Below, piece after piece: positions 1 to 7,556 of a stretch of 56,138 nt of DNA. The notes below the pieces were generated by a model. The model searched no databases. It saw only the letters and a program-made list of their open reading frames with translations, and had not been told where the DNA came from. This DNA is from Thauera linaloolentis 47Lol = DSM 12138. Its GTDB lineage: Bacteria > Pseudomonadota > Gammaproteobacteria > Burkholderiales > Rhodocyclaceae. The DNA lies in NCBI RefSeq assembly GCF_000310205.1, contig NZ_AMXE01000016.1:1-56138 (forward strand). The letters are read 5' to 3'. The translations under genes were made by a program, and so were the position numbers. Each line of letters begins with the position of its first letter. Within the stretch, counting starts at the first letter, position 1.

Positions 1-45
1 GGCCCCCGCCGCTCCCCGCCATGCCCCCGAGCGCCAGGCGCGGGC

Positions 46-351
46 TCAGTTCTCCGGCACGTAGATCATGCGCCCGTCGTCGAGACGGTAGGTGACCCCC
101 GCCCGCGCGCCCTGCCCCTGGCCGACCTCGCCGCTGGATTCGTAGCGCGTCAGTTCCTGCCCATCCTTGATGGTGATGCGCATGTCGGCTTCGCCCGGAT
201 TCTCGACGACCACGACCTTGTTCTGGGAAAAGGGGTTGAGCGGGTTCTGCGCGATGACCACCATCAGCATGCCGATGATGACCAGGAACAGGTCGATCAG
301 GTTCACCACCGACAGCATCGGGTCGGTATCGTCCTCGTCGAGAAATCGCAT
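46..351 (-). CDS. DUF2149 family small membrane protein, ExbD-like (HmuV-type)
   Basis: A 101-residue protein read from the ATG at 351, whose first base overlaps the stop of the ExbB-like gene (ATGA), so the two are translationally coupled. One membrane segment lies at about residues 13-31 (SVVNLIDLFLVIIGMLMVVI). It contains an Asp in the setting NLIDLFLVII, which resembles the ExbD/TolR segment (IDVMLVLL) where the Asp is the proton-carrying residue. The rest, about 65 residues, would be periplasmic and ends near the C-terminus with YRLDDGRMIYVPEN. DUF2149 genes accompany CobN-like/TonB-receptor clusters such as hmu of Porphyromonas. The ExbD-like role is my inference from the membrane motif; I know of no direct demonstration. 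It is the last complete gene of the operon in this window. Confidence 0.8.
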   Translation of the reverse strand: MRFLDEDDTDPMLSVVNLIDLFLVIIGMLMVVIAQNPLNPFSQNKVVVVENPGEADMRITIKDGQELTRYESSGEVGQGQGARAGVTYRLDDGRMIYVPEN

Positions 352-857
352 CAGGCTTGCCCTCCGCCGCGCTGGCGTTCCAGTTCGCGCAGGTCCTGCA
401 ACAGCCAGCGCCGGCGGATGGTGAGGATGAAGAAGCAGATGCTCGCCGCCAGCAGCGCCAGGATCACCGCCGAGAAGGCGGCGACCATGTTCTGGCCCAC
501 GGCGGCGGCATCGTTGCCGCCCAGCGCCAGCAGCGCGGGCCCCATCGGGATCATGGTGGCGATCAGGCCGAGCATGGGCGCGGTGCGCGAGACGATGCGC
601 AACCATTCCAGCCGGCGCATGATCCACAGCTCCAGGTCATCGCTCGCCAGCGGGAGCCGTCCGGCATCCGCCCGCCGCGCGTGGGCGAACAGCGCACGCG
701 GATGCGTGTTGCGCCGGCGCTGCCAGCCCTCGACCGAGAAGGCGCCGAGCATCACCAGTGCATAGCCCAGCGCGACGGCGATCAGCAGCATCACCGGCGC
801 CAGAAACACGCGCGAGACGGCATAGAGCAGGGTTTCGATTTCAGCGAATACGGTCAT
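351..857 (-). CDS. MotA/TolQ/ExbB proton channel family protein (HmuU-type)
   Basis: A 168-residue inner-membrane protein with three hydrophobic segments: about residues 14-40, 93-112 and 122-148. The second begins TAPMLGLIATMIPMG, the TolQ/ExbB/MotA family signature region, and the third carries the small and polar residues expected of a proton-channel helix. It is shorter than ExbB (about 240 residues) because the cytoplasmic loop is reduced. It starts 22 bases after the CobN-like gene and overlaps the DUF2149 gene by the ATGA arrangement. By context the two small proteins would form a dedicated proton-driven motor for the receptor and/or the membrane-anchored chelatase of this operon. The family call is firm; the partner is inferred. 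Confidence 0.88.
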   Translation of the reverse strand: MTVFAEIETLLYAVSRVFLAPVMLLIAVALGYALVMLGAFSVEGWQRRRNTHPRALFAHARRADAGRLPLASDDLELWIMRRLEWLRIVSRTAPMLGLIATMIPMGPALLALGGNDAAAVGQNMVAAFSAVILALLAASICFFILTIRRRWLLQDLRELERQRGGGQA

Positions 858-879
858 GGGGTTTTTCCGGGCCGATGCG

Positions 880-3800
880 TCATGCGGCCATTCTCGAAAG
901 GCGGCGCGTGCCGGCGGCCTGCCACAAGCCGCCGGCGCAGACCAGAAACAGCATCAGGGCCAGCGCCCATCTCTGCCGGATGTCGTCCTGCGCGGGAGGC
1001 TCGACCGGCTCCAGTACCGGCCCCTGCACGGTTTCCAGGGAGCCATCGTCCGCTACCGGGGCCTCTGCGCGGGCGGGCGCGGCCTCCGTGTCCGGAGCGG
1101 GTGCCGCATCCAGCCCGAAGCCCTGCGCCAGATCGGCGATGAAGCGGCGCGTGGGCGCGGCACCGGTGTCCACACCGAACTGCCGTTGCAGCGCCTGCCA
1201 GCGCTGCGCCAGTTCGCGGCGGGTCTGGCCGGAGGCATCCCAATACCCCTTGCGGATGGCTTCGGCCATGCGTTCCAGGATCTGCGCCTGCGCGGTGGGG
1301 TTGTGCCGCTCGAACCATTCGCGCGTGCCCAGTTCGCGGATGTCGGTGACATAGGTGTCGAACAGCGCCTGCCACTGGTCGTCGCGTACCGTGGAAGCAT
1401 CCATGGCCTGCCAGCCGAACAAGTTGTTGGTGGCGTCGAGCACCTGCAGCGTGCCGGCATAGCCCTCCTGCTGCATCGCGGCGATCCAGTGCGGATTGAG
1501 ATAGCGCGTACGCATCTCGTCGGCGAGAAAGCGCGCCAGCCCGATGGTCCGCGCGTCGTGGCTGCGCAGGTCGGAAACGAGCAGTTGCGGCGCCTGGCCG
1601 TCCAGGTGCCGGACGGCCGCCGACAGGCCGCCGAGAAACTCGAACGGATGATCGGTGGACAGCACGCCATGCACGTTCGACGAGCGCGACATGATTGCCA
1701 CCTGCGTGCCGCGCAACTGCTCGGCCAGCAGATTGGCCTGCGCCGGCGCCGTGCCCCAGCCCTGGCGGCCATAGGCGTGGCTGCTGCTGGCGAGGAATTG
1801 CCGGGCCAACGCAGCATCGTCGTCCCATTCGGTGGAGCGCAGCGCCAGATCGGGCACGCCGGTGCCGTACTCGCCCGGCGCGTTGCCGAAAATGCGGTAG
1901 CGCGCCGCCGCGGCGGCGTCCTCGGCCGGCATGCCTTCCTGCTGCAGGGCCGCGGCGATGCGGCGGTTGTTGGCGGCGATGGGGTTGGCGGGTTCGTCCA
2001 GTCCGGCCAGGCGCACCAGCGCGTCGTCGAGCAGGCGCATGAAGCCGTCGAACTGGTCGCGGTATACGCCGGTGACCTGCACCACCACGTCACTGCGCGG
2101 CCGGCCCAGTTCTTTGGCTGGAATGATCTCCAGCGCGGTGACGCGCCCGCCGGCATCCCACACCGGGCGCAGGCCCAGCGCATGCAGGATCTGGGCCTCG
2201 GTCACGCCCAGGTGGCGGATCGCTTCGGACGACCACAGGCTGAAGGCGAGCTTCTCCGGCCAGGCGCCGCCATTGCCGTCGCGAAAGGCCTGCACGAGCT
2301 GTCCGTAAGCGGCCGCGGCGGCGTCATACGCGGCGCGTGCGGGAATCTTGTCCGCCTCGAAGGCATACAGGTTGCGGCCGCTGTGCACCTCCGGGCTGCG
2401 GATCGGATCACCGCCGGCGCCAGGCTGCACGAAACGGCCGGCCAGCCCGGCCAGCAGCGCCTCATTCTCCTGCGTGTCGCGCAGGCGGCGGTCCAACTCG
2501 CGGGCGCGCCCGGCAAACGCGGCCAGCGCGGCGGGCAGGGGGTGGCCGGCATCGGGCTCCAGCATGCGGCGCACCGCGAGATAGGCCGGGTTGTCGCGCA
2601 AGGCGGCGTGGTCGGCCACGAACAGCGCTTCCCGATCAGCGCCCAGCGCGGCGTAGAAGGGTTCGCCAAGCTGCTGCATGATGGTGCTGGCGCGATGCTC
2701 GGCGCCGGCTGGCTGGCCGAAGGTGTGCAGGCCCAGGGGCATGGCGCTGCGGGCCAGTTCGTGCAGTTGGTCGTGCACCGCCTGCAGGAAGCCGCCGAAA
2801 TCCTGCGCGGCCCGCTGCGGCGTCCAGCCCAGGTCCTCGTGCAGATGGGCGGCCGCCGCCGCCGCGCGGATCCGGGCCCCCACCTGCTCGCGCACCATGC
2901 CCTCATCGAGTTGCTGGTATTCGTGGATCAGGTGGTGCAGGTCGCGCAATTGGTCGTAAAGGCCGGCCGGGGCGAAAGGCGGCGTCTGGTGGCTGACGGT
3001 CACCGCGCGGCCGCGTCGCTTGGCCTGGATGGCCTCGCCGACATTGTCCTGGATGTAGGGGTAGAACACCGGCAGGCTACCCAGCGCCAACCAGGGGTAG
3101 TCACTGGCGGACAGCCCGCGGTCCTTGCCCGGCAGCCATTCCTGCGTGCCGTGGGTGCCCAGATGGATCAGCGCATGCGGCTTGTAATGCTGCTGCAGAT
3201 ACAGGTACGACGCCATGTAGAGGTGGTCGGGGACGCTGGCGATGTCGTGGTAGTGGCCGCCCGTTTCGGCGTGGCGCGGCATTTGCGGCATCACCAGCAA
3301 CTGGCCGACCTGCCAGCGCGGGATGACGAAGTAGCGCCGACCGTCCACCTCGCGCACCGCCCGGTGCCGCCCGGGTTCGCCCGCGCGGCGCAATTCGGCC
3401 TGGCGTTGGGCGGGCAGCCCAGCCAACCAGCGTTCGTAGTCGGCCAGCGGATAGAGCGCGGCCATGTCCTCGGCCAGCAGGGCATCCAGTGGCACGCGGC
3501 CATGCACGGCGCCCAGCATGCGCTGCCCGGCATCGATGACCTGCTGCTCGGCGAGCGCCTCGCCCACCGCGTGGCCCTGCGCCGCCAGTGCGGCCTGGAT
3601 CGAGACGATGCTGCGCGGGACGTTCAGGTTCGACGCGCCGAGATTCTTCTCGCCGGCCGGGTAGTTCCAGAACATCAGCGCCAGCTTCTTGCCGGCCGGC
3701 GGGGTACGGCGCAACGCGACCAGGCTTTGCAGCTTGGCGATCAGGGCATCGGCCTGTTCGGGCAGCAGGTCTTCGACGCCCGCGGTGGCCGCCGACAGCA

Positions 3801-4776
3801 CCAGCGGGTCGCTGATGCCCCAGCCCTCGGGGCCGGCCAGGAACACCGCCGTGGTACGCGCCGCCACGCCGCTCGCGGCCGCGGGCCAGTCGGCGGCCTC
3901 GCCTTCGCGAAAGCGCAGGGTCTGGAGCACGGGGACGTCGAGCGCGAGGAAATCTCGCCTGCGGGCCTCGCCGTTCTGCATGTGGGACAGGTTGACCAGC
4001 GCATCCACCCGCCCGCCGCCCAGGACGCCCGCGAGGCCGTCCGGCGCGGCCGCGTCGGACCAGAGGGCGATCGGCTGCAGGCCCGCCGCCTCGCTGCGGG
4101 CGATCAGTTCGTCGATCTCGCGGGTGAGCATGTCGGCCACGACGCCCGGATGGATCAGGAAGGCGACACGGCCGTCCGGGCGGCCGGCATTCGCCGCCGG
4201 GCGCGCGGCATGCCAGGCGAGGTAGGCCTCGAGGCGCTCGAAGACACGCGGCGCTTGCGGATGGTAGAAACCGGTGGACGGCAGGCGCTGCGGCGCTTCG
4301 AGCAGGCTGGGCGCGGGCGGGACGCCTTCGTGCGCCGCCCGTGCCAGGGCGAAGAAGCGGCGGAAGTTGCCTTCGCCGCCGGCGGCGTAGAGCTCGGCCA
4401 GTGCGGCGCCGTAGCGGGGCGGCAGGCGCTCCCAGGCGGGACGGCCGCCGCCGACCGTCAGACGCGGCACGACCGCCGCCCCGGGCACCTGTTCCAGCCG
4501 CTGCGCCACCATTGCGCGGTCGTTCGGCCGCGGTACGTCCAGCACGACCAGCGCAGTCGATGCGAGCGCCGCCCGCAAACCGTCCGCGCCGGCCTTGTCG
4601 ACGTCCAGATGCCGCAGGGCCACGCCTTCCTGCGTGGCGAAGGCCTGAAGACGCTGGAACTTCTCTGCCGAGACGAAGCCGTTGTGCAGCACCTGCACCA
4701 CCGGGGCCGCCAACACCGGCAGCGGGCCGGCCAGCAAGCAGTACAGCCACCACCACGCGAAACGAAGACGCGGCAT
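880..4776 (-). CDS. Exported, membrane-anchored CobN-like metal chelatase (HmuS-type)
   Basis: A 1298-residue protein of the CobN / magnesium-chelatase H-subunit family. The core motif HLGTHGTQEWLPGK lies at about residues 537-550, and homology-like sequence runs through most of the length. Unlike cytoplasmic CobN of cobalamin synthesis, it starts with a hydrophobic signal-like segment (LRFAWWWLYCLLAGPLPVLA, residues 4-23) and ends with a predicted transmembrane helix (WALALMLFLVCAGGLW, about 1270-1285) followed by basic residues. This puts the chelatase domain in the periplasm, anchored at its C-terminus. The ATG overlaps the receptor stop (ATGA). No CobS/CobT or ChlI/ChlD partner is nearby; the neighbours are a TonB receptor and an ExbB-like pair, the setting of haemin-operon HmuS. 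Likely work is inserting metal into, or removing it from, an imported tetrapyrrole or metallophore. The metal is unknown, although the Zur-like promoter points to zinc. Confidence 0.88.
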   Translation of the reverse strand: MPRLRFAWWWLYCLLAGPLPVLAAPVVQVLHNGFVSAEKFQRLQAFATQEGVALRHLDVDKAGADGLRAALASTALVVLDVPRPNDRAMVAQRLEQVPGAAVVPRLTVGGGRPAWERLPPRYGAALAELYAAGGEGNFRRFFALARAAHEGVPPAPSLLEAPQRLPSTGFYHPQAPRVFERLEAYLAWHAARPAANAGRPDGRVAFLIHPGVVADMLTREIDELIARSEAAGLQPIALWSDAAAPDGLAGVLGGGRVDALVNLSHMQNGEARRRDFLALDVPVLQTLRFREGEAADWPAAASGVAARTTAVFLAGPEGWGISDPLVLSAATAGVEDLLPEQADALIAKLQSLVALRRTPPAGKKLALMFWNYPAGEKNLGASNLNVPRSIVSIQAALAAQGHAVGEALAEQQVIDAGQRMLGAVHGRVPLDALLAEDMAALYPLADYERWLAGLPAQRQAELRRAGEPGRHRAVREVDGRRYFVIPRWQVGQLLVMPQMPRHAETGGHYHDIASVPDHLYMASYLYLQQHYKPHALIHLGTHGTQEWLPGKDRGLSASDYPWLALGSLPVFYPYIQDNVGEAIQAKRRGRAVTVSHQTPPFAPAGLYDQLRDLHHLIHEYQQLDEGMVREQVGARIRAAAAAAHLHEDLGWTPQRAAQDFGGFLQAVHDQLHELARSAMPLGLHTFGQPAGAEHRASTIMQQLGEPFYAALGADREALFVADHAALRDNPAYLAVRRMLEPDAGHPLPAALAAFAGRARELDRRLRDTQENEALLAGLAGRFVQPGAGGDPIRSPEVHSGRNLYAFEADKIPARAAYDAAAAAYGQLVQAFRDGNGGAWPEKLAFSLWSSEAIRHLGVTEAQILHALGLRPVWDAGGRVTALEIIPAKELGRPRSDVVVQVTGVYRDQFDGFMRLLDDALVRLAGLDEPANPIAANNRRIAAALQQEGMPAEDAAAAARYRIFGNAPGEYGTGVPDLALRSTEWDDDAALARQFLASSSHAYGRQGWGTAPAQANLLAEQLRGTQVAIMSRSSNVHGVLSTDHPFEFLGGLSAAVRHLDGQAPQLLVSDLRSHDARTIGLARFLADEMRTRYLNPHWIAAMQQEGYAGTLQVLDATNNLFGWQAMDASTVRDDQWQALFDTYVTDIRELGTREWFERHNPTAQAQILERMAEAIRKGYWDASGQTRRELAQRWQALQRQFGVDTGAAPTRRFIADLAQGFGLDAAPAPDTEAAPARAEAPVADDGSLETVQGPVLEPVEPPAQDDIRQRWALALMLFLVCAGGLWQAAGTRRLSRMAA

Positions 4777-6752
4777 CAGAACTTCGCCGTCAGCCCGGCA
4801 AAGTAGCGCCGCCCTTCGTCGGCGCGGCCGTGGAGATCGGCGTCGTCGTTGGCGAGGCGCTCGTCCGTCAGGTTCTCGATGCCGGCATGCAGCGCCAGCG
4901 AACGCCCCAGCTCATGATCCACATACCAGTGCAGCAGGGTGTAGCCGGGCCGGTCGCGCTCGGCGGCCGAGCGATACTGCGCACCGGTGTACTCGGCCTG
5001 CAGGCGGGTGGCCAGCCGATCCATCGCCATCCAGGACACGGTGGCGCTGGCGCGGTGGCGGGAACGGTCGGCCAGGCGCCCGCCGTTCGTGCGGTCGCGC
5101 GCATCCAGGTAAGTGTAGCTGGCATCCACCCGCCACTGCCGCGACAGGTCCGCCCCGGCGCTCAGCTCCACACCCCGCAAGCGCACCCTGGCGACGTTCT
5201 CGTATTCCAGGCAGACGCGCCGTGGCTCGAAGCAGGTGGGCTGGCGCTGGGTTTCGATCAGGTTGCGCACGTCGTTGTGGAACACGGTGGCGCTGGCCGA
5301 CCAGGCGCCCCGGTCGTATGCGGCCCCCAGCTCGAAAGAGCGGTTGGTCTCGGGCTTCAGGTCGGGGTTGCCACGAATGATGCCGCGTCCGCCCATCGCC
5401 GCGCGGGATTCGAATTCCGGCGACAGCTGCTTCAGCGTCGGCGCCTTGAACCCCCTGCCCGCGCCGGCCTTGAAGGTCAGCGCCTCGGACGGATGGAACA
5501 GCAGGTAGGCGCGGGGGCTGGTTTCCCAGCCGTAGTCCTCGTGGCGGTCGAAGCGGCCGCCCAGCACCAGCTCCCACCGCTCCCCCAACAGGATCTCGTC
5601 CTGCGCGAAAAGCGCATGATGAGTCTGGGACTTCCTCCCCGAGCGGGTGACATTGGGGTCTTCGAGGCTTTCGCGGCGCAGCTCCGCACCCAGGGTCAGC
5701 GCATGGGATGCACCGGCCCTGAAACCCAGCCTGCCGTCGAGCACGGTGTCGGTGAAACGGTTCGGGGCGGTCGAGTCGGCGCCGTCGCTGCGGCGGGCGC
5801 TCCGGTCCAGCGTGCTGCGGTACAGCCTCACCCGGCTGCTGCCCCAGTCCCATTCGCCGGCATGCGAGAGCGAGTAGCGGCGGCGCTGGACTTCGTTTTC
5901 GGCCTTGTAGAACGGGCTGGCGGTGCTGCTGCGCAGGCCCTCCTGGTCTTCGTTGCCCGCGCTCGCCGACAGGTCGATGCGCTGGCGGACGTCCGGCGTC
6001 CAGCTCAGCCCGACATGGCCGGTGGTGGCGCGCTGCCGGTCGAGCGCGGTCAACGCCGCATCGCCCGCGTCGCGCAGCGCGTCGCGGTAGCGGTATTCGC
6101 CCCACACGTTCAGCCCCAGGCGGCCCGGCACCAAGGGGCCGCCCAGATAGAAGCCGCCTTTGTACTGGTTGCCGTCCAGGCCATGGTCATTGATCAGCGC
6201 ATAGCCGCTGGCCGACCCTTGCCAGCGGTCGGTGGCCGAGCGGGTGATGACGTTGACCACGCCGCCGAGGGCCTCCGAGCCGTAAAGGGACGACATCGGC
6301 CCGCGCACCACTTCCACCCGCTCGATGGCCTCGGCGGACACCCAGCCGAGCTCGAAATCCGAGTGGGCGATGGCGGAGGCGGAGGAGTTGATGCGCTGCC
6401 CGTCGACCAGCATCAGCGTGTGCTCGGAGCTCATGCCGCGAATCGACACCCCCCGCCGCCCCAGGCCGACACTGTCCAGGCCGATGCCGACGGCACCCCG
6501 CACGGCATCGGCAAGATCATTCACGGGCCGGCGGCGCAGGCTTTCGCCGTCGATGACGGAGACGCTGGCCGGCGCATCGGCTTCGCTACGCGCCGAGGCG
6601 GTGGCCGTCACGACGATGGACGGCAGCGGCGCCATCTCGCGCTGCTCGCCGCGTCCCGGGACATGCTGCCCCGCATCCTGCGCGCAGGCCGCGCCACCCA
6701 CGAGCGCCAACGCGATCAGCCCGGCATGGGCGGCATCACGCCGCGCGTTCAT
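4776..6752 (-). CDS. TonB-dependent outer-membrane receptor, Zur-type operon
   Basis: A receptor of about 658 residues. It has a signal peptide (RRDAAHAGLIALALVGGAACA), a TonB-box-like stretch LPSIVVTATAS soon after it, a plug domain with RRGVSIRGMSSEHTLMLVDG and VERVEVVRGPMSSLYGS, then a 22-strand-type barrel. The barrel contains the family motif RGNPDLKPETNRSFELG and ends in the C-terminal Phe typical of outer-membrane proteins (YFAGLTAKF). It belongs to the CirA/FepA/HmuR-like group and carries siderophore, haem or metallophore ligands across the outer membrane. ATG codons at 6776, 6764 and 6752 are all in frame; I prefer 6752 because it gives a compact signal peptide preceded by AAGGGATGTGGAAG. 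It follows ykgO on the same strand with a gap of about 60 bases and overlaps the CobN-like gene by ATGA. The ligand is not readable from sequence; zinc control suggests a zinc complex. Confidence 0.88.
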   Translation of the reverse strand: MNARRDAAHAGLIALALVGGAACAQDAGQHVPGRGEQREMAPLPSIVVTATASARSEADAPASVSVIDGESLRRRPVNDLADAVRGAVGIGLDSVGLGRRGVSIRGMSSEHTLMLVDGQRINSSASAIAHSDFELGWVSAEAIERVEVVRGPMSSLYGSEALGGVVNVITRSATDRWQGSASGYALINDHGLDGNQYKGGFYLGGPLVPGRLGLNVWGEYRYRDALRDAGDAALTALDRQRATTGHVGLSWTPDVRQRIDLSASAGNEDQEGLRSSTASPFYKAENEVQRRRYSLSHAGEWDWGSSRVRLYRSTLDRSARRSDGADSTAPNRFTDTVLDGRLGFRAGASHALTLGAELRRESLEDPNVTRSGRKSQTHHALFAQDEILLGERWELVLGGRFDRHEDYGWETSPRAYLLFHPSEALTFKAGAGRGFKAPTLKQLSPEFESRAAMGGRGIIRGNPDLKPETNRSFELGAAYDRGAWSASATVFHNDVRNLIETQRQPTCFEPRRVCLEYENVARVRLRGVELSAGADLSRQWRVDASYTYLDARDRTNGGRLADRSRHRASATVSWMAMDRLATRLQAEYTGAQYRSAAERDRPGYTLLHWYVDHELGRSLALHAGIENLTDERLANDDADLHGRADEGRRYFAGLTAKF

Positions 6753-6810
6753 CTTCTTCCACATCCCTTGTTCCATCGATGCGACCCGGCCGGCCCGGCC
6801 TGGCCCTGGT

Positions 6811-6960
6811 TCAGCCTTTGCGCTTGTTCTTCGCCCCGCCCTGGCGCGCCTTGAAGCGCGGATTGCTCTTGCAGATGACGTAGATGCGGCCGCGGCGGCG
6901 GACGATCTGGCAATCGCGATGGCGGTTCTTGGCTTCCTTGAGGGATGAGAGCACTTGCAT
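6811..6960 (-). CDS. ykgO: Zinc-independent 50S ribosomal protein L36 (type B, YkgO/RpmJ2)
   Basis: A 49-residue protein beginning [20 protein letters not shown] and containing [19 protein letters not shown]. It matches the E. coli YkgO paralogue of L36 closely. Canonical L36 holds zinc with Cys-x2-Cys, Cys and His. Here the first Cys is replaced (HRDC) and the last His is replaced by Phe (PRFK), which is the zinc-free C-minus form. A strong ribosome-binding site (AGGAGG) lies 8-9 bases before the ATG. In many proteobacteria this paralogue is made only under zinc starvation and is controlled by Zur, releasing zinc from ribosomes. It is the first gene of the receptor/chelatase operon, directly downstream of a Zur-like box. 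Confidence 0.93.
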
Positions 6961-7064
6961 GGCAACGACCTCCTGCTAACGGTTTGGATTCAACAGCACG
7001 GCGACACGGCGACCTCCCGTCCGGAAATGCGCTGAATCAGCGCCGAATGAGCCCCGTTTAGTTC

Positions 7065-7094
7065 TGTTATAACATAACAATTCCGGAGTTTCAA
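7065..7094 (-). promoter_or_regulatory. Sigma70-type promoter overlapped by a Zur-like box
   Basis: On the minus strand TTGAAA (7089-7094) and TATAAC (7066-7071) are separated by exactly 17 bases. The -10 is part of the inverted repeat TGTTAT-AAC-ATAACA (7065-7079). Its core GTTATAACATAAC matches the proteobacterial Zur core GTTATANTATAAC, as I recall it, at all but one defined position. Zinc-loaded Zur would block polymerase here. The leader to ykgO is about 100 bases. The box is seen directly; the regulator is inferred, since no zur gene is in the window, but ykgO as the first gene supports it strongly. Confidence 0.82.
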
Positions 7095-7133
7095 AACCGC
7101 CACGCCGCGCGAAGCGTGCCCCTGGCGGGCCGC

Positions 7134-7556
7134 TCAGCCGGCGTCCTGCCCGCCCTGCGCCCAGGGAAGGCCTGCAAAGTGCTCGGCGAGATAGTCGATC
7201 AGGGCCTGGACGCGGGCCGGCCGCCGCCGCCCAGGCGGCGTCACGATGTGCAGGGCGATGGGTTCGACCTGCCAGTCATCCGTGGCCGTCTCCAGCCTCC
7301 CCGCCTGGATGTCCTGCCAGGCCAGGAACTCCGGCTGCAGCGCCAGACCCAGCCCGGCCAGCAGGGCGGGAGCCAGGGCTTCGGCGTTGTTGACCCGGAG
7401 CGGCGTGTTCATCGCCTGGGTGAATTCGCCATGGCGCGCATGGCGGAAACGCCAGCTCGCGCCGCTGCGCGAGTACGCGTACCGCAGGGCGCGATGTTCG
7501 GCCAGCTCGCGCGGATGGCGCGGGCGGCCATGGCGCTCGAAATAGCCCGGCGTGGT
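7134..7556 (-). pseudogene. LysR-type regulator remnant (C-terminal substrate-binding half)
   Basis: From about GYFERHGRPRHPRELAEH to the stop at 7134, the minus strand reads as the last 140 or so residues of a LysR-type substrate-binding domain. It includes LRVNNAEALAPALLAGLGLALQPEF and a typical C-terminal helix (RVQALIDYLAEHF). The DNA-binding helix-turn-helix and the first half of the effector domain are missing. Upstream of about 7556 the homology stops where the plus-strand MFS remnant begins. An open frame extends further upstream but is the antisense of that remnant and has no LysR character. Likely non-functional. Confidence 0.75.

Follow-up and report, generated by a model that had tools for sequence, protein, structure and literature searches.

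The closest described relative of the locus studied here is PA1922-PA1925 of Pseudomonas aeruginosa, which has stood since 2015 as a zinc-uptake cluster of unsolved mechanism, carries a 'cobaltochelatase' label and has been read as related to cobalt or to free zinc. These genes were reported in that year as a Zur-regulated operon with a predicted Zur site, and their expression was up 44.7- to 147.3-fold in a znuA mutant (PMC4542158). The PA1922 promoter was reported to be bound by Zur (PMC8531726), and proteomics placed PA1922, PA1923 and PA1925 at higher levels in zinc-depleted cells, with only one of the listed p-values <0.05 (PMC11761036). A second relative is the haem cluster hmuYRSTUV of Bacteroidota, in which HmuU is ExbB-like and HmuV is a DUF2149 protein (PMC10434189). 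For its chelatase HmuS from Bacteroides, it was reported that His538 removes iron from haem, that His1209 and Glu1212 face His538, that an H538A mutant has no haem turnover and that His254 and Met79 bind a second haem (PMC12583661). Here, a cluster of this kind was analyzed in Thauera linaloolentis 47Lol, on a stretch of 56,138 nucleotides (the window) that is a complete contig (NZ_AMXE01000016.1; C16) of the 4.2-Mb genome. The original prediction rightly likened the cluster to hmuR-S-U-V; its remark that such a set of genes had yet to be described for zinc was wrong, given PA1922-PA1925.

Five genes, all on the minus strand, lie downstream of a Zur box at 7060-7079:

7060-7079, minus strand: a pair of Zur boxes that overlap, TGTTATAACATAACA and AGTTCTGTTATAACA; the L36 gene begins about 100 bp downstream.
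6811-6960, minus strand: ribosomal protein L36 of the C-minus type, which lacks the zinc ribbon (NCBIfam NF002021, 'type B', 92.4 bits, cut-off 70).
4776-~6752, minus strand: TonB-dependent outer-membrane receptor, by family profile match; start codon at 6752 or 6764.
880-4776, minus strand: CobN-like class-I chelatase (CobN/HmuS-like), apparently exported and C-terminally anchored (Pfam CobN-Mg_chel, 958.7 bits).
883-1062, minus strand: C-terminal tail of the chelatase, its last 60 residues (V.G..LEPVEPP, a transmembrane helix, then GGLWQ..RR).
351-857, minus strand: MotA/TolQ/ExbB-family inner-membrane protein, HmuU-like, by profile match.
46-351, minus strand: DUF2149 protein, HmuV-like, by profile match, with one N-terminal transmembrane helix.

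The cluster appears to be an operon. Coordinates and Pfam and NCBIfam matches bore out the five minus-strand genes and families that had been proposed, and the four genes from receptor to DUF2149 stand in the order of PA1922-PA1925 with a Zur box upstream. Two details required correction: the junctions described as ATGA overlaps both read TGATG, with one base shared (positions 4776 and 351), and the −10 element placed within the box was not recovered, a sigma-70 scan giving no promoter-like site in 6940-7200 or in 1-7200 on either strand. Scanning 1-7200 on the operon strand turned up no terminator-like site, so L36 and the receptor plausibly share one transcript; the region past the DUF2149 gene lies off the contig end. 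CirA was the best NCBIfam match of the receptor, yet below its cut-off. At another place in this genome (G000:C1:84751-84861), an L36 of the zinc-binding, four-ligand kind is kept, its ligands having been identified by eye.

An exact copy of the box TGTTATAACATAACA occupies 7065-7079, overlapped by a weaker box at 7060-7074. Throughout the window, three matches were found at ≤3 mismatches, all at 7060-7079, compared with a mean of 0.01 in shuffled sequence. Relatives were taken as the best 80 of 177 loci from a genome scan with the chelatase as query (45-81% chelatase identity; loci and contigs are cited by L and C numbers). ExbB and DUF2149 genes follow the chelatase in 78/80 loci; the other two, L034 and L075, come from contigs 3.9 and 4.4 kb long. 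The box scan used 76 of the 80 (L034, L074, L075 and L084 were skipped), with the receptor start derived from the chelatase position in six. At ≤3, ≤2 and ≤1 mismatches, 57, 37 and 18 loci, respectively, had a Zur box in the 700 bp ahead of the receptor, compared with 0.83, 0.41 and 0.26 sites predicted by the remaining sequence of these loci. Sixty permuted palindromes gave means of 2.5, 0.2 and 0.0 loci and maxima of 25, 2 and 0 at these thresholds. Chance occurrence of the box was rejected on the shuffles and on the expected 0.83 sites against 57/76 loci. The box that the original prediction proposed to seek in front of orthologous clusters is thus present in most of them.

Genome-wide, GTTATANNATAAC was found exactly at two places only, the operon box and C4:26715-26732. 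The latter site precedes two COG0523-like genes; the first encodes the zinc GTPase/metallochaperone ZigA (NF038288, 695 bits, cut-off 600), and the second was above cut-off for no such model. The pattern TGTTATANTATAACA gave nine sites at ≤3 mismatches, compared with five for its reversed control, and therefore only its one-mismatch sites stand out. Alongside the box in front of zigA, the zinc-regulon features of the genome include a Zur-like gene on C53, which shares 66% identity with the zur-like gene of L016; the best NCBIfam match of its product is Zur, at 76 bits, below the cut-off of 167. L016 (Thauera sp. Sel9) has, one after another, a zur-like gene, the box, zigA, the C-minus L36 gene, the receptor, the CobN-like gene, ExbB and DUF2149. 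This is the only one of the 80 loci, besides the window, in which C-minus L36 adjoins the receptor; in L025, 2.6 kb separate the receptor from a C-minus L36 gene upstream of it. Matches of ZigA type (>48% identity, not all of them complete) were found in 10/80 loci, and DksA-type genes with fewer cysteines (counted from the sequences) in 7/80, some of which may be the normal DksA of their species. Box conservation, zigA at the second site and the published zinc regulation of PA1922-PA1925 strongly support the zinc role and Zur control that had been predicted, and the sequence evidence indicates that the operon is very likely controlled by Zur.

As zinc-type chelatases at ≥76% identity were found in only 4/199 genomes of the bacterial family, the type is patchy. 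A survey of neighbors around the loci returned mainly unrelated genes, plus many spurious frames. In Microbulbifer thermotolerans, the cluster is preceded, on the other strand, by a ZIP-family zinc transporter gene (Pfam Zip; L090:2821-3552).

Two further class-I chelatases are encoded in the same genome and served as controls. The true CobN lies elsewhere (C125), behind a cobalamin riboswitch and adjoining a CobW-like gene, and scored 1607 bits against the CobN equivalog TIGR02257; the window chelatase scored 499.5 bits, below the cut-off of 822. A role of the window enzyme in cobalamin synthesis was rejected, as the true CobN is the one behind the B12 riboswitch. The model NF004644 (PRK05989.2-2, 'cobaltochelatase CobN') takes the window chelatase at 1688 bits (cut-off 1248) and also accepts the C83 paralogue above cut-off, whereas the true CobN falls below. 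This model probably spreads a wrong name, and 'cobaltochelatase' is a misnomer for the window protein. The second exported-looking chelatase (L096, G000:C83, 301-6350) follows its own receptor, upstream of which (182 bp) lies a Fur-like site, GAGAATGATTATCATTGAG, that has more mismatches than the three allowed when the whole genome was searched for Fur sites; no Zur box was found there. Fur-like sites (≤5 mismatches, within 400 bp) were identified in 4/5 close C83-type loci against a background of 0.017 per locus. The DUF2149 partner of the C83 chelatase may be the one on C45. No Zur box was found within 600 bp of the receptor in the 32 exported-paralogue loci with a located receptor (out of 36 from the bacterial family), many of these receptor starts relying on weak matches (58-126 bits). 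One genome therefore holds three class-I chelatases under three controls, namely a B12 riboswitch, a Fur-like box and a Zur box.

Aligned to HmuS (9d26), the window chelatase has His542 at His538, Glu581 at Glu577, His1043 at His1209, Glu1046 at Glu1212 and His265 at His254, numbers being counted off printed alignments. The catalytic His-538 and the DHxxEF motif (His-1209, Glu-1212) of HmuS thus have counterparts in His542, His1043 and Glu1046. Among 78 of the 80 zinc-type proteins (the zinc clade; L069 and L084 were too short), His542 was found in 78, His1043 and Glu1046 in 76 each and His265 in 75. By contrast, the 36 exported paralogues carry Asp at position 1043 in 34 and Gln at 1046 in 33, and none has His at 265; the over-long reads L197 and L211 are among the 36, are misaligned at key columns and were omitted from the trees and the tail model described below. 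The B12 CobN of this genome has Asp, Gln and Ala at 1043, 1046 and 265. The signature coincides with the box: in 75 loci, all 57 with an upstream box have the full signature, as do five with a box elsewhere in the locus and eight with no box, and the five without the full signature have no box in the locus, although these represent only two or three lineages and are not independent. This tie between an HmuS-like catalytic signature and apparent zinc control is new.

In a tree of zinc-clade and paralogue proteins, the zinc clade was monophyletic (support, 0.974), and L072 and L086, the exceptions at 1043/1046, branched first within it (inner node, 0.66). Position 1043 changed in one step on the tree and position 265 in seven. 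When HmuS was included, it fell outside all exported proteins (zinc clade bootstrap, 77), and the His/Glu pair may therefore have two separate origins; two of the trees, including one with HmuS, sampled about every third zinc-clade protein. Other HmuS features were missing. No Gly-Arg follows His265, so the Met-79 and His-Gly-Arg (His-254) haem site is not reproduced; Met79 aligned to Pro82 in one alignment and stood in another register in a second, and no Met of the head domain was 90% conserved in 30 sequences. The Met-rich insertion of HmuS (domain IV, 712-933) faces a gap in the alignment, bridged by residues 716-769 of the window protein. Membership in HmuS proper was rejected on these two defining features. 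An AlphaFold model of residues 24-1200 had a mean predicted local distance difference test score (pLDDT) of 83 and a predicted template modeling score of 0.82. The N terminus resembles a signal peptide by eye; a hydropathy test of it was passed by 51/78 proteins but is non-discriminating, as the B12 CobN passes too. A C-terminal hydrophobic helix was found in 72/78 zinc-clade and 33/36 paralogue proteins and not in the one B12 CobN.

On balance, we consider it rather likely that the operon is a Zur-repressed zinc-starvation unit that combines a zinc-sparing L36 with uptake of a zinc complex, periplasmic dechelation and energy from ExbB-DUF2149. Zinc-loaded Zur would repress the operon, and scarcity of zinc would relieve this repression, allowing zinc to be spared by zinc-free L36. 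The receptor would bring zinc over the outer membrane in complexed form, possibly as a zinc tetrapyrrole or bound to a metallophore. The membrane-anchored periplasmic class-I chelatase would then work in reverse, with His542 and, facing it, a Glu1046-supported His1043 gripping and protonating the ligand so that Zn2+ leaves, as in HmuS, and the released Zn2+ could be taken up by ZnuABC encoded elsewhere in the genome. Proton energy would come from the ExbB-DUF2149 pair and would most likely pass to the chelatase via its C-terminal helix. We infer the ligand, the release of zinc, the motor role and the hand-over to ZnuA; the dechelation mechanism of the original prediction is plausible.

Alternatively, the operon could import free zinc, the receptor taking Zn2+, ExbB-DUF2149 powering the receptor and the chelatase domain being a zinc-binding bystander. 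Free-zinc import has been suggested in print for PA1922-1925 (PMC10393844, PMC8456098, PMC11761036), yet we regard it as unlikely here: the 1,300-residue chelatase, whose presence is by construction since it was the query, keeps the HmuS-type catalytic residues, six loci lacking the window's receptor type retain chelatase and ExbB-DUF2149 pair, and seven ExbD-family genes elsewhere in the genome could serve receptors. Similarly improbable is a cobalt route, in which the operon would deliver cobalt or process a cobalt-tetrapyrrole so that cobalt replaces zinc under zinc starvation. In P. aeruginosa, cobalt rises in the znuA mutant, with the operon proposed as a cause (PMC4542158), the Zur-regulated PA2911-2914 is a reported importer of pyochelin-cobalt (PMC11481552) and zinc starvation is eased by cobalt (PMC13083405); the window enzyme, however, is not the cobalamin enzyme and differs from the true CobN at the key residues. 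A haem-iron system like hmu, adopted by Zur at the promoter only, is very doubtful despite its matching gene set and catalytic residues (PMC10434189), as 57/76 loci have zinc boxes (the scan covered zinc boxes, not iron boxes), the other exported chelatase of the genome has the Fur-like box instead, and the Met-rich insertion and Met79 are missing.

The hmu papers assign HmuU and HmuV to energizing the receptor (PMC12583661, PMC10100974), and PA1924 was likewise assigned to powering the receptor (PMC4542158). The HmuS reaction was reported to be stimulated by inner membranes, an effect of HmuT, HmuU and HmuV on it not being excluded (PMC13227078). Asp20, in the N-terminal transmembrane helix of DUF2149, was invariant across 27 aligned sequences; the protein gave no match to the Pfam ExbD profile at E ≤ 0.001, and its low-confidence model (pLDDT, 63) has one helix followed by five strands in a beta-rich part. 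In 57 of the 199 family genomes, 71 DUF2149 matches were found; matching by eye placed a chelatase within ~5 kb for 55 of them and none within that distance for 14, the other 2 lying at contig ends or on a separate contig. Exclusive dedication of the pair to chelatases was rejected on these 14, whose regions yielded no chelatase and no hit to any of three query receptors.

In 13 of the 14 chelatase-free loci, the gene just upstream of ExbB (its start gauged by its length) ends in a chelatase-like tail. A profile built on the 60 C-terminal residues from 112 of the exported chelatases (without L197, L211 and L075) ranked these 13 open reading frames (ORFs) first among 2,180 ORF ends in the 14 loci (E values, 2e−9 to 0.067; next, 0.12). 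The weakest, L238 (10.2 bits), falls under the best reversed decoy (11.8 bits; E value, 0.021), and 11/13 outscore every one of 14,667 ORF ends taken from elsewhere and not belonging to chelatases (maximum, 15.4 bits). A profile from the zinc clade only ranked the same 13 first, and one from paralogues only ranked 11 of them first. In a quick regular-expression check, 79/112 chelatase tails passed a first pattern and 102/112 a second. Sel1 repeats were identified in all 12 of the 13 tail-bearing proteins that were scanned. Loci L237-L249 (e.g., L237:7857-9703) place ExbB and DUF2149 behind a Sel1-repeat protein with the chelatase-like tail; inspection by eye showed a COG0523-like gene near the L237 set and a hydrogenase-like gene near the L242 set. 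In L236, the one locus of the 14 that departs from this, the ExbB frame is short and neighbors an apparently ordinary TonB-ExbB-ExbD set (by eye). In distant chelatases beside DUF2149 (L250-L253, L256-L261), the tail was weak or absent (E values, 5e−4 to none), and searches of the PDB with one tail or with 24 did not recover HmuS.

That a chelatase membrane tail recurs in Sel1-repeat proteins is a new observation; most simply, the tail would serve to dock the protein bearing it to the ExbB-DUF2149 complex. Because unrelated Sel1-repeat proteins beside the same pair carry it too, ExbB-DUF2149 is a candidate proton motor of the chelatase. We extend this tentatively, at somewhat short of even confidence, to a general scheme: the pair would be a proton-driven motor of periplasmic chelatases docked through the conserved C-terminal tail, replacing the ATP-driven motors CobST and ChlID of cytosolic relatives and not powering the receptor, and would also drive at least one unrelated client, the tail-bearing Sel1-repeat protein; the zinc operon would be a Zur-controlled, proton-powered zinc dechelatase, and duplicated class-I chelatases of a single genome would serve cobalt, probably iron, and zinc. 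The shared tail thereby yields a testable claim that ExbB-DUF2149, and perhaps HmuU-HmuV of gut bacteria too, energizes the enzyme and not the receptor. Among the open-access papers searched, no proposal was found of zinc dechelation by this protein or of ExbB-DUF2149 as a chelatase motor.

Several points weigh against Zur-controlled zinc dechelation. Zinc is not redox-active, whereas HmuS is NADH-dependent and iron-reducing, and cobalt could be the cargo. The ZnuA gene lies on C1 (L099, 4253-7643) behind probable znuC, znuB and another Fur-family gene, and the operon-type box is absent from this znuCBA operon at ≤3 mismatches. The regulator reading the box is consequently assigned from synteny in L016, and the genome may have two zinc regulators. 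One of the 60 permuted palindromes did reach 25 loci at ≤3 mismatches, and 19/76 loci lacked a box in the scanned region, of which 5 had one elsewhere in the locus and 14 had none. The receptor of the window had no same-strand match upstream of the chelatase in L048, L051, L054, L056, L058 and L070; in the two rhizobial loci L051 and L070, another class of TonB-dependent receptor is present (L051:3540-5912 and L070:3388-5739), and Zur box, chelatase, ExbB and DUF2149 are kept despite it. In P. aeruginosa, binding of the PA1922 promoter by Zur in electrophoretic mobility shift assays was reported to occur even without added zinc (PMC8531726). A review based on 150-bp promoters described Zur control of PA1922 as 'unique to P. 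aeruginosa' within Pseudomonas and suspected free-zinc import (PMC10393844); the box conservation found here goes wider than that statement.

Among known systems, the Ton system (TonB-ExbB-ExbD) shares an ExbB-family protein with the window operon. ExbD has an N-terminal transmembrane helix with an acidic residue, as does DUF2149. Unlike the Ton system, the window operon has no TonB gene, its DUF2149 protein is outside the ExbD profile, and the ExbB-DUF2149 pair also occurs where none of the three query receptors was found nearby. The aerobic CobN of B12 synthesis belongs with the window enzyme to the CobN/Mg-chelatase superfamily, but the window enzyme is tail-anchored and apparently exported, has His/Glu/His where the CobN of this genome has Asp/Gln/Ala, and is encoded behind a promoter stretch in which a scan found no riboswitch. 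The hmuYRSTUV cluster likewise comprises a receptor, an exported chelatase, an ExbB-type protein and DUF2149, and the haem dechelatase HmuS shares the catalytic His pair, the Glu and the neck His with the window enzyme, which differs in having no Met-rich insertion and no conserved Met79; no hmuY or hmuT was seen between the window genes, and control is by zinc instead of iron. PA1922-PA1925 (PA14_39650-39620) resembles the window operon in its published descriptions, with a receptor annotated as CirA-like, a CobN-like protein, an ExbB/D-type proton-channel protein and DUF2149 in the same order (gene order and DUF2149 from PMC9431628), within the Zur regulon (PMC4542158, PMC8531726, PMC9431628). 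It differs in that no C-minus L36 lies in the operon, rpmJ2 of P. aeruginosa (PA3600) being elsewhere, and in that a methyltransferase gene, PA1921, is listed under the same predicted site. For this family of clusters, the coupling of the catalytic signature to Zur boxes yields a specific and testable claim, a zinc dechelatase of HmuS type.

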